Assembly: GCF_000719135.1 (NCBI RefSeq)
Contig: NZ_JOEK01000002.1
Span: 310,001 to 374,000, forward strand
Reading direction: 5' to 3'
DNA: 64,000 bases
DNA from: Streptomyces avicenniae
Lineage (GTDB): Bacteria; Actinomycetota; Actinomycetes; Streptomycetales; Streptomycetaceae
Under the pieces are notes generated by a model. The model was not told the origin of the DNA, searched no databases, and saw only the letters and a list, made by a program, of their open reading frames with translations. The first letter of the stretch is position 1. Each line of letters begins with the position of its first letter. Made by a program: the position numbers and the translations under genes. Below, one piece after another: positions 59,169 through 64,000 of the stretch.

Positions 59169-60373
59169 ACGGCGGCTCGGTGGAGTTCGGTGGCGATGTG
59201 GCCGATGACGCGCTGGAGATCGGCGCAGTACACGGACGGGTTGCGGAATGCCTCCGGGGTGCGGTCGGGCCCGTCGTGGCCGTCTGCGGCGCGGTAGCGG
59301 TGGGCGTAGTGTCCCCCGCCGCAGACGTCGAGGACGGGGCAGCGCAGGCAGGTGTCGGACAGGGCGTCGGTGCCGGACTGCCGGGTGGCGACGCCCGGGT
59401 GGTCGAGGGCGGCGTCGAAGGGGTGGTGGAAGACGTCCAGGCCGGTGGCCGCGGCGCCCTCGTAGGCGCTCTTGAGTGAGTCCACCTGCTCGATGCCGCC
59501 GTCGGTCTCGACGACGACGGCGGTGAACGGCTGGAGGCCCATGCTCTCGGTGGCGGCGGGCAGTCCGAGGAGCAGGGCGATGCACTCCTCGAAGAACCGG
59601 ACGCGGGTACGGCGGCGGTCGGCGTTCCACCACAGGTCGAAGACGGCGCAGAGCCAGTCGCCGTAGGGCGTGGGCGAGGCGGGGGGCGCGGGCAGGCCGG
59701 GGGGCGGGTGCGTCCAGTTGCCGTGCGGGAGGAGGAAATCGACGGCGGGCGGCGCGAGGGCGAGCAGGGAGCCGTACACCTCGGCGGGGTCGGTGGCCGC
59801 GTCCACGACGCACAGCGCCCCGGCCCACGAGCCCCGGTGGCGGTCGTCGGCCAGCAGGCGGGCGGCCCGTTCGATGCCGGGCCAGGCGGGCCGTCCGGCG
59901 TGGTCCACGCGCTGCGCGTTGTGGGCGGCGAGGCCGCCGTCGAGGCTGAGGCCCACGGTGATGCCGTGCCCGGTGAGCGCAGTCAGCTTCTCCTCGGTGA
60001 GCAGGACGCCGTTGGTCTGCACGGTGGCGAGGACGGCGCAGCCCTCGGGCACGCGCGCGCGGACGTCGCGGACGAAGGCGCCGAGGACGTCAGGGTCCGT
60101 CAGCAGCGGCTCGCCGCCGTGCAGCACGACGGACAGGACGGGCAGGCCGTGGGCGGCGGCGTGTTCGGCGATCCGCTCGGCGGTACGGGTGAGGGTGGCG
60201 GGGCGTGCGGTGACGGGCTGCCGACGCCAGCCGCTGTCGGCGGCGAAGTACATGTAGCAGTAGCGGCAGGCGAGGTTGCAGCGGCTGTTCACCTTCACGA
60301 TGAACTGCTGGAACGGCACCGCTCCCGGCGGGCGGCCGGGCGCGTGCCGGGTCGCCTCGGCCCTTGCGCGCAC
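59165..60373 (-). CDS. fxsB: FxsB-type radical SAM/SPASM cyclophane maturase
   Basis: 402 aa. Radical SAM CxxxCxxC with Cys32, Cys36 and Cys39 in NSRCNLACRYCYMYF. The usual SAM-binding stretches follow (VVLHGGEPLLTD, TVQTNGVLLTEEKL, GLSLDGGLAAHNAQR). The C-terminal SPASM-like Cys cluster (DTCLRCPVLDVCGGGHYAHR, then YCADLQ) would hold auxiliary clusters. FxsB enzymes crosslink an aromatic ring to the side chain two residues later (three-residue cyclophane). GTG 60373 was chosen because GGGGGAG lies 9 nt upstream, better than GTG 60319 or 60427. It acts in the cytoplasm on the fxsA product. Confidence 0.92.
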   Translation of the reverse strand: MRARAEATRHAPGRPPGAVPFQQFIVKVNSRCNLACRYCYMYFAADSGWRRQPVTARPATLTRTAERIAEHAAAHGLPVLSVVLHGGEPLLTDPDVLGAFVRDVRARVPEGCAVLATVQTNGVLLTEEKLTALTGHGITVGLSLDGGLAAHNAQRVDHAGRPAWPGIERAARLLADDRHRGSWAGALCVVDAATDPAEVYGSLLALAPPAVDFLLPHGNWTHPPPGLPAPPASPTPYGDWLCAVFDLWWNADRRRTRVRFFEECIALLLGLPAATESMGLQPFTAVVVETDGGIEQVDSLKSAYEGAAATGLDVFHHPFDAALDHPGVATRQSGTDALSDTCLRCPVLDVCGGGHYAHRYRAADGHDGPDRTPEAFRNPSVYCADLQRVIGHIATELHRAAV

Positions 60374-60561: not shown

Positions 60562-60786
60562 TCAGGCGTTCAGCATCGACTGGTTGAACGAGCTGAACTG
60601 GTTGAAGCCCCAGAGCCCTTCACGTTCCTTGAGCACGCGCTCCCGCAGGTCGTGCAGCACCTCGCTCAGCACCGGGTGGTCGAGTCGGCGCAGCTCGGTC
60701 AGGCTCAGGTCGAGCAGGTCGGGCAGCGGCTCGCTGTCCCCCGCGCTGGCGGTCCCGTTCGCCGTGTGCTGAGGGCGGGTCGTCAT
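60562..60786 (-). CDS. fxsA: FxSxx-COOH-type RiPP precursor with triple aromatic motif
   Basis: 74 aa. The leader (about 18-52: LPDLLDLSLTELRRLDHPVL, SEVLHDLRERVL) is the family's recognition region. The core is EREGLWGFNQFSSFNQSMLNA: W59, then F61-N-Q, F64-S-S, F67-N-Q without gaps, followed by SMLNA. Classical members end exactly in F-x-S-x-x; this one carries the FSS inside and extends 8 residues beyond it. ATG 60786 has GGGAGGA 6 nt upstream. Located directly upstream of fxsB, as expected for precursor and maturase. Product activity unknown. Confidence 0.9.
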   Translation of the reverse strand: MTTRPQHTANGTASAGDSEPLPDLLDLSLTELRRLDHPVLSEVLHDLRERVLKEREGLWGFNQFSSFNQSMLNA

Positions 60787-60925: not shown

Positions 60926-63900
60926 CTACCGGCCGCTGCGCAGCGCGGCGAGCCGCGTCCGCGTCGGCTCGCCGTCCACCGCGCCGTCCGGCAGCCTGCG
61001 CCACTGGACCAGGGCCTCGCTGTACGCGTCCGCCGCGGCCAGCGGGCGGCGCGCGGCCTCCGAGACCATGCCCCGCTGGTGCAGCGCGAGCGCGGCGAGC
61101 CGCACGGCGTCCCGCGCGACGCCCGCCGCAGGTACTCCCCCCGGCGCCGCGAACTCACCGCCGGGGCCGTCGCCTTGGCCGTGCTGGAGCGCCTCGGACG
61201 CGGCTCTGCGGTACGCGTCCGCCGCGTGGTCGAGCCGCTCCGGCCTGCGCGTGTGCCGGTAGGCGCGGCGGTGGGTCTCGCCCAGCTCGAACCAGGCGCG
61301 CGCCCGCTCGTACGGCGTCCGCGCGTGGTGCACCGCCCGGGTGAACAGGTGCTCGGCCTCCCGCAGATCGACCAGGTCCTCGGTGACGCGGTACCTGACC
61401 GTCAGGGCGCGGCCCAGCGTCAGGAGCCGGTAGGACAGCCGGGGGTGGCTGCCCGGCGTCTCCATGCGGCAGTCCCGCAGGACGCGGACGGCCCGCGAGA
61501 TGAACGGGTCGCCGTCCGGCAGCCCGGCCCGGCGCAGCAGGACGTCGCCCCACTCCTCGATGAGGTCGCTGTAGTCGGCGCGGTCACGGGAGACGGCGCG
61601 GCCCGCCTCGGCGAACCGGTCGGCGGCCTCCTCAAGTTCACGCGGCGGGCCGCCGTCGTCGAAGCGCCTGACGGCGAGCCGGGCGGCCCGGATCAGGCAG
61701 GCGGCGCGCAGTCCCGGGTCCTCGCTGAGCCGCTGCGCCTGGGCGATGGGGTCGGCGGCGTCGGGCCAGGCGTCGTCGGTCAGGAGCAGCGCGTCCACGA
61801 GGTCGAGGAGGGCGGCGACGCGCTCGCCCGACGGCGCGTGCTCCGCCTCAAGCGCCCAACTGCCGCGCCGCAGCGACCCGGCGGCCTGCCCGGCGTACAC
61901 CTCGGCGCGCTCGGTGCCGTGCGCGGCGCCCGCCAGCCGCAGCAGCGCGCGGCCGTGGGCCAGCGGCAGGCCGCTCGGCTGCCGCTCGCCGCGCGGCCAG
62001 GCGTCGGCCACGGCCTCGACCGTGCCGACGCTCTCCTGGAGCAGCGCGGTGTCGCCGCCGAGCCGCCACTGCTCCTCAAGCACCTGGACCCGCTCCAGGG
62101 TGACGGCGAGGGCGGCGTCGCGTTCCAGTCCCGGCGTCGCGCAGACGGCGGCGAACTCGCGGTCGGCGCGCTGCCACAGGTCCAGGGCGGCGGCGGTGTC
62201 ACCGGCCGCGCGGCGCTCGCTCGCCGTCGCGTGCAGGACGCGGGCGAGGGCGGTGCGGGCGCGGACGGAGCCGGGGAACGCCGCGGCCGTCGCGGCGGCG
62301 GTCCTGGCCTCGGCCAGCAGTTCCCCGTCGCGCTGGACGCGCCACAGGCGCAGGAGTTGCTCCGCCAGCTCGCTCCACAGCTCGGGCTCGGTGCCGCCCC
62401 CGGCGGCGCGCTGCGCCTCGGTGGCCTGCCGCAGGACGCGTACGGCGTCGAGCTGGTGCTGGACCTTCCCCTCGGCGGTGAAGCGGTCGGCGAGGTCGCG
62501 GGCCTCGCGGACGGCGGCCAGCGGCGGCGGGCCAGGCGTGCCGGGGGCGGGCGCGTGCTGGGGCGGCTGCGGCAGGAAGCGGCGCAGGACGCGCGCGGCC
62601 ACCTCGGCGAACGGCTGGGCGAGCTGCTGTTCGGCCGACGGGTCGGGCAGCCGCCGGGCCGGGGGCGTGGTCGGCCCGGCGGCGACGCGGTCGCCGCCGC
62701 TGAGCTGCGCGAGCGCCAGGGCGGGGAAGTTGGGGCCGCTCCTGCCGAGCCGCTGCTCGACCCAGGCGGAGCAGTGCTTGAGGACGAGCAGGGCCTCGTC
62801 GTGGCCGAGGTCGGCGAGCAGTTCGTCGTGCACACCGTCGGCGAACGCGTACCACCGGCCGTCGCCGCTGCCGGGGCGGCGGCGCACCAGGCCGCCGAGC
62901 AGGACCTCGGAGAGTTCCGCAGGGCCGGAGTCGGGCAGCATCGTGCGCTGGACGAGCTGCATCACGGGCAGGAACAGCGGCGCCGCCGCCAGGTAGACGG
63001 CCAGCTGCCCGGCGCCCGGGGACGCCGTCGCGCGGAAGCGGGCGACCATCGCGGCGGCCGTGCGCGGGAGCCCGGTGACGCGGCGGGCCGGGGCGGGCGG
63101 CTGGTCGGGCCTTACCCATCCGACGGCGGCGCGGGTGGAACCTGCGGAGACGCCGGACAGCAGCCCGGCCCACGCGCCCAGCGCCGCCGGGACGGGCGGG
63201 AGCACGGGGATGGGCAGCGCGCCGGGCGGCACGGGCAGGGGGTAGCCGACGTCGTCGGCCGTGAAGCGGACCCGGGCCGCCGCCGTCTGGCCCTCGTCGC
63301 GCTGCAACGTCCCGGCGGACGCGGGGAGCCGAGTGCGGGCCCACATCCGCTGCGGGAGCGGCTGGACGACGGCGACCGGCGCGTGGCGGGCCAGCCCGTG
63401 CAGCAGCCGGTGGGCGGCGCCGCTGCGCCACAGCGGGCCGGTGCAGTCGCTGACGACGACGGTGAGGCGCCGTCCCGTGGGGTCCTGGAGCTGCCGGGCG
63501 GGCCGCAGCACGGCGTCGCCCGGGTCGAAGCGGCGGCTTATGGCCGGGGCGCCGTCGGGCGACTGGTGCAGGTAGTGCACCTGGAGGTCGCGGAAGGCGC
63601 CGAGCCGGGTGAACACCTCGGCCAGCTCGCCCAGCATGCTCTGCCAGATCCGCATGGCGGGCGCGGCGTCCATGAGCAGTTGCAGTTCGGTGTGGCCCCG
63701 GGGCTCCTCGTGGAAGGCGGGGATGAGGAGGCCACCGGCGCGGGCGGTGCTTTCCACGGTCTTTCGTTCGTCCAGGTCGGGGGCGGCGAGGCGGCGCGGT
63801 GGGCGGCCGGGGGGCCGGTAGCGCTGGAGGGGGCGCAGGGCGCGTTCGAGGCCGAGGGGTGCGGGCAGGGTGCGGGCGGCGGGGATGCCGACGGGCACGC

Positions 63901-64000
63901 CGCGCGCGGGGGGCGCGGCGCTCTCGTGGGTGTCGGCGCCGGAGGGGGACGCGTACAGGGCGAAGGACTGGTCCGCGGGGGACACCGGGCCCTGGGGATC
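60926..64000 (-). CDS. SAV_2336 N-terminal domain-related protein, 5' end missing
   Basis: At least 1024 codons visible; the frame is open to the window edge and the family's N-terminal helical domain is not in view, so the gene starts beyond 64000. The visible part has RALPRPLERALRPLQRYRPP-like basic sequence, LQLLMDAAPAMRIWQSMLGE and a von Willebrand-like segment (VVVSDCTGPLWRSGAAHRLL), as in SAV_2336-type proteins that accompany FxSxx-COOH loci. From about codon 480 it consists of TPR-like helical repeats (AWFELGETHRRAYRHTRRPE). Probable scaffold or regulator; enzymatic motifs are not visible. Confidence 0.85.
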   Translation of the reverse strand, partial: DPQGPVSPADQSFALYASPSGADTHESAAPPARGVPVGIPAARTLPAPLGLERALRPLQRYRPPGRPPRRLAAPDLDERKTVESTARAGGLLIPAFHEEPRGHTELQLLMDAAPAMRIWQSMLGELAEVFTRLGAFRDLQVHYLHQSPDGAPAISRRFDPGDAVLRPARQLQDPTGRRLTVVVSDCTGPLWRSGAAHRLLHGLARHAPVAVVQPLPQRMWARTRLPASAGTLQRDEGQTAAARVRFTADDVGYPLPVPPGALPIPVLPPVPAALGAWAGLLSGVSAGSTRAAVGWVRPDQPPAPARRVTGLPRTAAAMVARFRATASPGAGQLAVYLAAAPLFLPVMQLVQRTMLPDSGPAELSEVLLGGLVRRRPGSGDGRWYAFADGVHDELLADLGHDEALLVLKHCSAWVEQRLGRSGPNFPALALAQLSGGDRVAAGPTTPPARRLPDPSAEQQLAQPFAEVAARVLRRFLPQPPQHAPAPGTPGPPPLAAVREARDLADRFTAEGKVQHQLDAVRVLRQATEAQRAAGGGTEPELWSELAEQLLRLWRVQRDGELLAEARTAAATAAAFPGSVRARTALARVLHATASERRAAGDTAAALDLWQRADREFAAVCATPGLERDAALAVTLERVQVLEEQWRLGGDTALLQESVGTVEAVADAWPRGERQPSGLPLAHGRALLRLAGAAHGTERAEVYAGQAAGSLRRGSWALEAEHAPSGERVAALLDLVDALLLTDDAWPDAADPIAQAQRLSEDPGLRAACLIRAARLAVRRFDDGGPPRELEEAADRFAEAGRAVSRDRADYSDLIEEWGDVLLRRAGLPDGDPFISRAVRVLRDCRMETPGSHPRLSYRLLTLGRALTVRYRVTEDLVDLREAEHLFTRAVHHARTPYERARAWFELGETHRRAYRHTRRPERLDHAADAYRRAASEALQHGQGDGPGGEFAAPGGVPAAGVARDAVRLAALALHQRGMVSEAARRPLAAADAYSEALVQWRRLPDGAVDGEPTRTRLAALRSGR

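Follow-up and report, generated by a model that had tools for sequence, protein, structure and literature searches.

The stretch analysed here, 64,000 nucleotides of Streptomyces avicenniae DNA (contig NZ_JOEK01000002.1, positions 310,001 to 374,000; hereafter the window), encodes FxsA, the precursor of a ribosomally synthesized and post-translationally modified peptide (RiPP), whose core contains three contiguous Phe-x-x units (F61-N62-Q63, F64-S65-S66 and F67-N68-Q69). The interpretation that we favour, with somewhat more confidence than doubt, is that this locus supplies a VMAP-ternary-type conflict system with its RiPP module, that the core has grown from one F-x-x unit to three, and that the radical S-adenosylmethionine (SAM) maturase FxsB cross-links at least two of these units, probably all three. 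If several units are joined, the locus would show how the ring number of a RiPP is extended through the addition of nine-base units, here in a peptide linked to an effector of the STAND type. Moreover, natural one-, two- and three-unit precursors accompanied by closely related FxsB and HExxH enzymes offer a direct test of whether the substrate or the enzyme determines ring count, and the same series could show the role of the FxSxx peptide in these systems.

The whole translation of fxsA, MTTRPQHTANGTASAGDSEPLPDLLDLSLTELRRLDHPVLSEVLHDLRERVLKEREGLWGFNQFSSFNQSMLNA (74 aa, minus strand), starts at an ATG at 60786, immediately 3' of a Shine-Dalgarno-like GGGAGGA, and its C-terminus reads GLWGFNQFSSFNQSMLNA. 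The protein scores 36.6 bits against TIGR04268, the profile of the FxSxx-COOH cyclophane RiPPs (cut-off 28), and 30.6 bits, below the cut-off of 55, against the profile of a YxD relative. No family was matched in a Pfam scan of FxsA, and PF27839 is listed for 36 of its relatives from the protein search. A relative with 93 % identity (P0003) has the same last 18 residues, and the five window genes occur in identical order in eight of nine relatives examined, the ninth (L034) being a 3.8-kb contig with three of the five. The profile score, this relative and the kept synteny together indicate that fxsA is a real gene. Both neighbouring enzymes also exceed the cut-offs of their models (TIGR04269 for FxsB, at 417.3 bits against 370, and TIGR04267 for the HExxH protein), in agreement with an earlier reading of the sequence only, which had placed an FxsA-type precursor beside them. 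TIGR04268 finds one FxsA in the source genome, a tblastn search for plasmid carriage against 72,556 records gave no matches, and no solved structure related to FxsA was found below an E value of 0.5.

Unit identity and recurrence of multi-unit cores

F61, F64 and F67 are spaced exactly three residues apart and FSS is followed by eight more residues, as the sequence-only reading had described; units 1 and 3 consist of the identical nine bases TTCAACCAG. The same reading took FSS for the family motif, an assignment ruled out by alignments of 25 and 65 FxsA proteins, in which the near-invariant core Phe (90 % or more) corresponds to F61 and not to F64. Since F61 aligns with the family Phe, F61-N-Q is the ancestral site and FSS an added unit. 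The usual relatives terminate in LWGFNNAF or LWGFTNAF, and four residues follow the first core Phe in 134 of the 170 FxsA proteins that have one, whereas the window protein continues for 13 residues after F61 and for 10 after F64. FxSxx is therefore not protein-terminal here, which makes the window FxsA a variant and not a typical member, although it passes the TIGR04268 cut-off, which does not require a terminal motif.

Recurrence was assessed in 172 FxsA proteins, the window's included, from three protein searches, two of which contributed the best 120 of 396 and the best 120 of 349 matches; the sample is biased towards near relatives. By strict Phe count, 155 have a single Phe, in accordance with the expectation that relatives are mostly single-unit, ten contain F-x-x-F, two have none, and five contain F-x-x-F-x-x-F: P0002 (the window protein), P0003, P0004, P0005 and P0132. 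The homologue search for repeated F-x-x ends proposed in the sequence-only reading thus yields such proteins. Among the ten F-x-x-F proteins, the run starts at the family Phe in seven (P0006, P0011, P0015, P0045, P0046, P0047 and P0131) and upstream of it in P0009, P0030 and P0038, which were left out of the one-, two- and three-unit series. The third aromatic residue of P0131 is Tyr (GFNQFDQYNE). The multi-unit set accordingly comprises 12 proteins (five F/F/F, one F/F/Y and six with two units from the family Phe), all of which contain GF[NT]QF. When the 13 residues after F61 are permuted, Phe falls at both +3 and +6 in 1.3 % of shuffles; this figure is weak alone, and stronger evidence comes from the return of the pattern in diverged homologues.

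The residues around the recurring aromatics follow a graded pattern. Conservation is highest at unit 1, for which all 12 multi-unit proteins have FNQ or FTQ, and a polar middle residue is favoured at this unit across the family (N in 82, T in 48 and D in 18 of 167). Unit 2 is FSS, FSQ, FDQ, FDN, FDD or FDK, with S or D as its middle residue in all 12, while the six proteins with a third unit have FNQ, FDQ, FSS, FYS or YNE. Conservation of FSS alone beside freely varying FNQ units, which the sequence-only reading had named as the outcome contrary to its proposal, was not seen. The tail after the last Phe is seven residues long in the window protein, P0003, P0004 and P0005, and apart from the P0002/P0003 pair these tails share little sequence. 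In P0131 and P0132, nine extra Gly-rich residues separate leader and core, and GF[NT]QFDQ[FY] is kept behind this different linker; the multi-unit core thus behaves as a module. In four two-unit cases (L032, L034, P0046 and P0047) the second Phe has four residues after it (FDDIA, FDDSF), as is usual for FxSxx, which suggests that a terminal unit may gain further units on either side.

FxsA was found in 170 of 392 sampled genomes of the window's genus and in 69 of 394 genomes of a class-level sample. A further survey of the 392 genus genomes gave 87 with a match, with 30 places given as loci; among the matches read, tri-unit cases were seen in the window's genome and in one other (G186), whose FxsA tail is identical to that of S. 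hoynatensis (L059, L035). Among 80 stretches taken from the genus and class samples, 14 of them at places also counted as loci, Phe count gave no three-unit and one two-unit case (L123), and four further stretches have two aromatic residues three apart when Tyr and His are also counted. A precursor encoded in a genome of another family (L084; also L191) ends GFNSFSSDPTRRHSNRGPLPHL, with the two-unit core FNSFSS, and adjoins an FxsB scoring 472.7 bits against TIGR04269. Because this FxsB is distant (50 % identity, long branch), the two-unit core beside it probably has an origin separate from that of the Streptomyces group.

Proposed cyclization and alternative explanations

By analogy with characterized enzymes, we infer the following route. 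The conserved leader would dock on FxsB, which would take a C-beta hydrogen from the third residue of each unit (Q63, S66 and Q69) and bond that carbon to the ring of the Phe at i-2, so that a three-residue cyclophane results. The resulting cross-links, F61-Q63, F64-S66 and F67-Q69, would each cost 2 Da. The HExxH enzyme would then beta-hydroxylate ring-held residues, perhaps the middle residues N62, S65 and N68, and the modified peptide may serve as a toxin or signal working with the TIR/NB-ARC/TPR effector. The family of MscB, IPR026335, is presumably the FxsB family. MscB bonds Phe C4 to the Ser C-beta at i+2, according to the account of it in PMC11002830, and ChlH is described in a passage of PMC12636437 as beta-hydroxylating Asp and His after a cyclophane has been installed. 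In a bolder version, which we regard as less likely than not, the product would be a rigid tri-cyclophane rod (-6 Da) with hydroxylated middle residues, and the unit number (one, two or three) would be an evolving means of tuning an immune-type signal peptide, the ring count being set by the precursor and not by the enzyme.

The window FxsB has the cysteines expected of such a maturase, CX3CX2C as CNLACRYC and a C-terminal SPASM pattern CLRCPVLDVC...YC, and the radical SAM domain of ChlB (PDB 9gm3) is homologous to it (E 1.8e-66). The FxsBs of five multi-unit loci group together with a support of 93 in a quick tree and of 99/95 in a careful tree, from which two long rows were left out; both trees were built without G121, a partial FxsB that accompanies a single-unit precursor. 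Once G121, G345 and G684 were added, the G121 protein (49 % of columns filled) fell within the multi-unit cluster; in this tree a single clade of multi-unit FxsBs is not rejected (p-AU 0.513). The position of G121 implies that a change in unit number does not require a different enzyme. The G345 FxsB is sister to the multi-unit cluster with weak support (82/44), and its precursor, LWTFDEFAPGDES, contains F-x-x-F by strict count, yet is not labelled as multi-unit. At the G121 locus (L189) the HExxH gene seems split, with matching parts at 4711-3764 and 2394-2122 and about 1.4 kb between them, perhaps through an insertion; the precursor there is single-unit.

Several observations weigh against cross-linking of two or three units, beginning with the single-unit G121 enzyme inside the multi-unit cluster. 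Val at position 105 of the trimmed FxsB (QTNGVLL) is present in the multi-unit FxsBs and ChlB, where 47 others in one tree have Thr, but as a marker of unit number it was rejected, since Val also occurs beside single-unit precursors (L060, L085-L088 and L108). In addition, unit 3 is the least constrained, unit 2 includes FDK, and no report of a Phe-Gln cross-link was found in the open-access literature searched; by sequence, Gln is common as third residue in the family (30 of 167 first units). The predicted fold of the tail, taken up below, also counts on this side.

Another explanation, which we consider possible, if rather unlikely, confines cross-linking to the ancestral FxSxx site, unit 1 (F61-N-Q). 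The extra Phe units would then form a tail that serves FxsB, the HExxH enzyme or the effector as a follower or for recognition, and this tail would stay linear or be removed. In favour of this explanation, F61 aligns with the family Phe, no unit is better conserved than unit 1, relatives such as P0007, P0012 and P0023 have one unit followed by an unrelated tail, the placement of the G121 FxsB is compatible with it, and the HExxH enzymes PosC and PflC can cut the backbone near the C-terminus, as stated in the part of PMC12636437 that deals with them. However, the aromatic spacing at +3 and +6 is kept exactly though the intervening residues change, and the core is retained behind a different linker in P0131 and P0132, both of which favour multiple cross-linking over a recognition tail.

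It is improbable that the three Phe residues instead line the hydrophobic side of an amphipathic helix that prolongs the helix of the leader and serves as a binding surface, their spacing being unrelated to cyclophanes. AlphaFold2 does predict a single helix for residues 38-73, with a low mean pLDDT of 62.4, and the 3-3-4 spacing of F61, F64, F67 and M71 would put them on one helix side. On the other hand, the tail reaches a pLDDT of just 60-67 (means per ten-residue block), two-unit relatives end shortly after unit 2 (FDDIA, FDNNVDL), the Gly-rich linker before the core and the Pro/Gly after it in P0131 and P0132 are poor for a helix, and F61 is by alignment the family cross-link site. Chance or neutral drift, in which a nine-base duplication made a functionless repeat, would account for the nine bases shared by units 1 and 3 and for the rarity of tri-unit cores (5 of 172 in the near-relative-biased sample and none of the 80 stretches from sampled genomes), but is very hard to credit because P0004, P0005/L035 and P0132 also have the repeat, with residues that have diverged, and a two-unit core is known from another family.

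Genomic context and comparison with known systems

Table 1. Features of the fxs locus, in window coordinates
Feature	Position	Strand	Basis
fxsA, 74-aa precursor	60562..60786	minus	leader motif LPDLLDLSLTELRRLDHPVLSEVL, core GFNQFSSFNQSMLNA; translation, TIGR04268, homologues
unit 1, F61-N62-Q63	60598..60606	minus	aligns with the conserved family Phe
unit 2, F64-S65-S66, added unit	60589..60597	minus	sequence; recurrence in homologues
unit 3, F67-N68-Q69, added unit	60580..60588	minus	codons; same nine bases as unit 1
tail SMLNA, five residues after unit 3 (seven after the last Phe)	60565..60579	minus	translation
fxsB, radical SAM/SPASM maturase, about 402 aa	59165..60373	minus	TIGR04269, ChlB match, CNLACRYC motif
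alpha-ketoglutarate (aKG)-HExxH-type peptide hydroxylase, 458 aa	57792..59168	minus	TIGR04267 153.4 bits, cut-off 40; HELQH intact
FxSxx-COOH system TPR protein, 1008 aa	54668..57694	minus	NF040586 812.7 bits, cut-off 300
SAV_2336-type protein	60926..64000	minus	NF041121 465 bits; 5' end beyond the window, upstream of fxsA

The genes of the locus are listed in Table 1. The GTG start of fxsB at 60373 was chosen on account of an upstream GGGGGAG, the open frame extending to 60427, and the start of the HExxH gene overlaps the fxsB stop in an ATGA. The HExxH protein matches the structures 22nu (E 5.4e-21) and ChlH (8s5f; E 4.1e-7), and the TPR protein carries the Pfam domains TIR_2 (N-terminal), NB-ARC (AP-ATPase) and TPR. 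The entire SAV_2336-type gene, as read in a sequence extending past the window (L192), encodes 1129 aa; Pfam gave no match to vWA, TPR or any other family, so that its probable role as the vWA component is one that we infer. Past the window end, L192 encodes a MoxR-like AAA ATPase (AAA_5 at 31.9 bits, cut-off 22; bpMoxR at 20.1, under its cut-off of 27) and a trypsin-like VMAP-C protein (PF20028 at 134.8 bits, cut-off 27; Trypsin_2 at 39.9). PADLOC gave no matches for the TPR, HExxH and SAV_2336-type proteins, viperin matches for FxsB and weak AAA matches for the MoxR-like protein.

VMAP-ternary conflict systems are outlined in a section of PMC7159879 as combining an FxSxx peptide-processing module with a downstream TIR-AP-ATPase-TPR gene, the peptide being proposed there as a toxin or signal. 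Of the components that this section names, VMAP, the peptide, the radical SAM-SPASM enzyme, the HExxH protein and the TIR-AP-ATPase-TPR protein are present here too, the MoxR-like ATPase and the SAV_2336-type protein are candidates for the MoxR ATPase and the TPR-bearing vWA component, and the peptide core differs. Judged from its gene content, the locus would fit the RiPP module of a VMAP-ternary-type system. The zincin-like protein of the module was read as a peptidase in that section, and aKG hydroxylases were later shown in the HExxH motif family, as a passage of PMC12636437 reports. With the FxSxx-COOH system (TIGR04268/TIGR04269/TIGR04267/NF040586) the window shares the leader, FxsB, the HExxH and TPR partners, the gene order and the conserved Phe, but it has three contiguous units and not one.

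The suggestion of a wholly new product type is not supported, as tandem units as such have precedents in YNR-X-(HNR)2 precursors, YhhB and ChlB. The entry for cluster 41 in PMC9062424 describes YNR-X-(HNR)2 precursors, with contiguous (His-Asn-Arg)2, accompanied by a radical SAM enzyme and a putative aKG/Fe oxidase, and YhhB cross-links Tyr and His to Arg in the account given in PMC11002830; the two are presumably one system. As far as these accounts go, they have in common with the window back-to-back aromatic-x-x units, an FxsB-related radical SAM enzyme and an aKG/Fe oxidase, although Tyr and His are paired there with Arg and Phe in the window with Gln or Ser. The YhhB model NF041707 scores 318.4 bits on the window FxsB, under its cut-off of 445. 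The ChlB/ChlH system (PDB 9gm3, 9gmc and 8s5f) likewise has an FxsB homologue and an aKG-HExxH partner, and the title of a cited work calls ChlB a 'multiple cyclophane synthase'; the window differs in that its enzymes are encoded by two separate genes and its precursor has Phe units. A one-, two- and three-unit FxsA series in a conflict system was not found described in the open-access literature, a search to which the main triceptide papers are external.

Other core layouts and FxsA-like proteins

In other FxsA subfamilies an aromatic residue stands three positions before the family Phe, with Ala or Gly between (PYAAFDSSI, PYAGFQSAI, GFAAFQSAL and RFAAFQNSL; loci L002, L005, L010, L019, L057/L083, L095, L158, L003, L027 and L097). 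At L003, L027 (GFAAFQSAL) and L097 (RFAAFQNSL) this residue is Phe, so that F-x-x-F begins one unit upstream of the family Phe. An upstream aromatic-A-A unit is possible in these subfamilies, and HaaB is noted in PMC11002830, in the portion on this enzyme, as making His-Ala cross-links. In P0009 and P0030, QFYQFDQNLGDD or QFYQFNQNLGDD replaces the LWGF of other FxsA proteins, which may represent another two-unit layout.

Two FxsA-like proteins (L135 and L058) end differently, in EFQEVWYSGSGE... and EFREVWYGDGEG..., and have no Phe-x-Ser/Asn core. In family f20 (G423, G567, G645, G684:C29, G700 and G490), approximately positions 3-29 of the FxsA model, in its leader region, give weak matches (22.8-27.8 bits) within frames of 757-1397 aa, so that these large proteins would carry a leader-like segment but no core. 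Finally, two tandem FxsA-like matches lie in one open frame at G103:C1:2536424-2536711 and at G068:C1:8968756-8969076 (261 and 550 aa), which look as if precursors or leaders had been fused head to tail.
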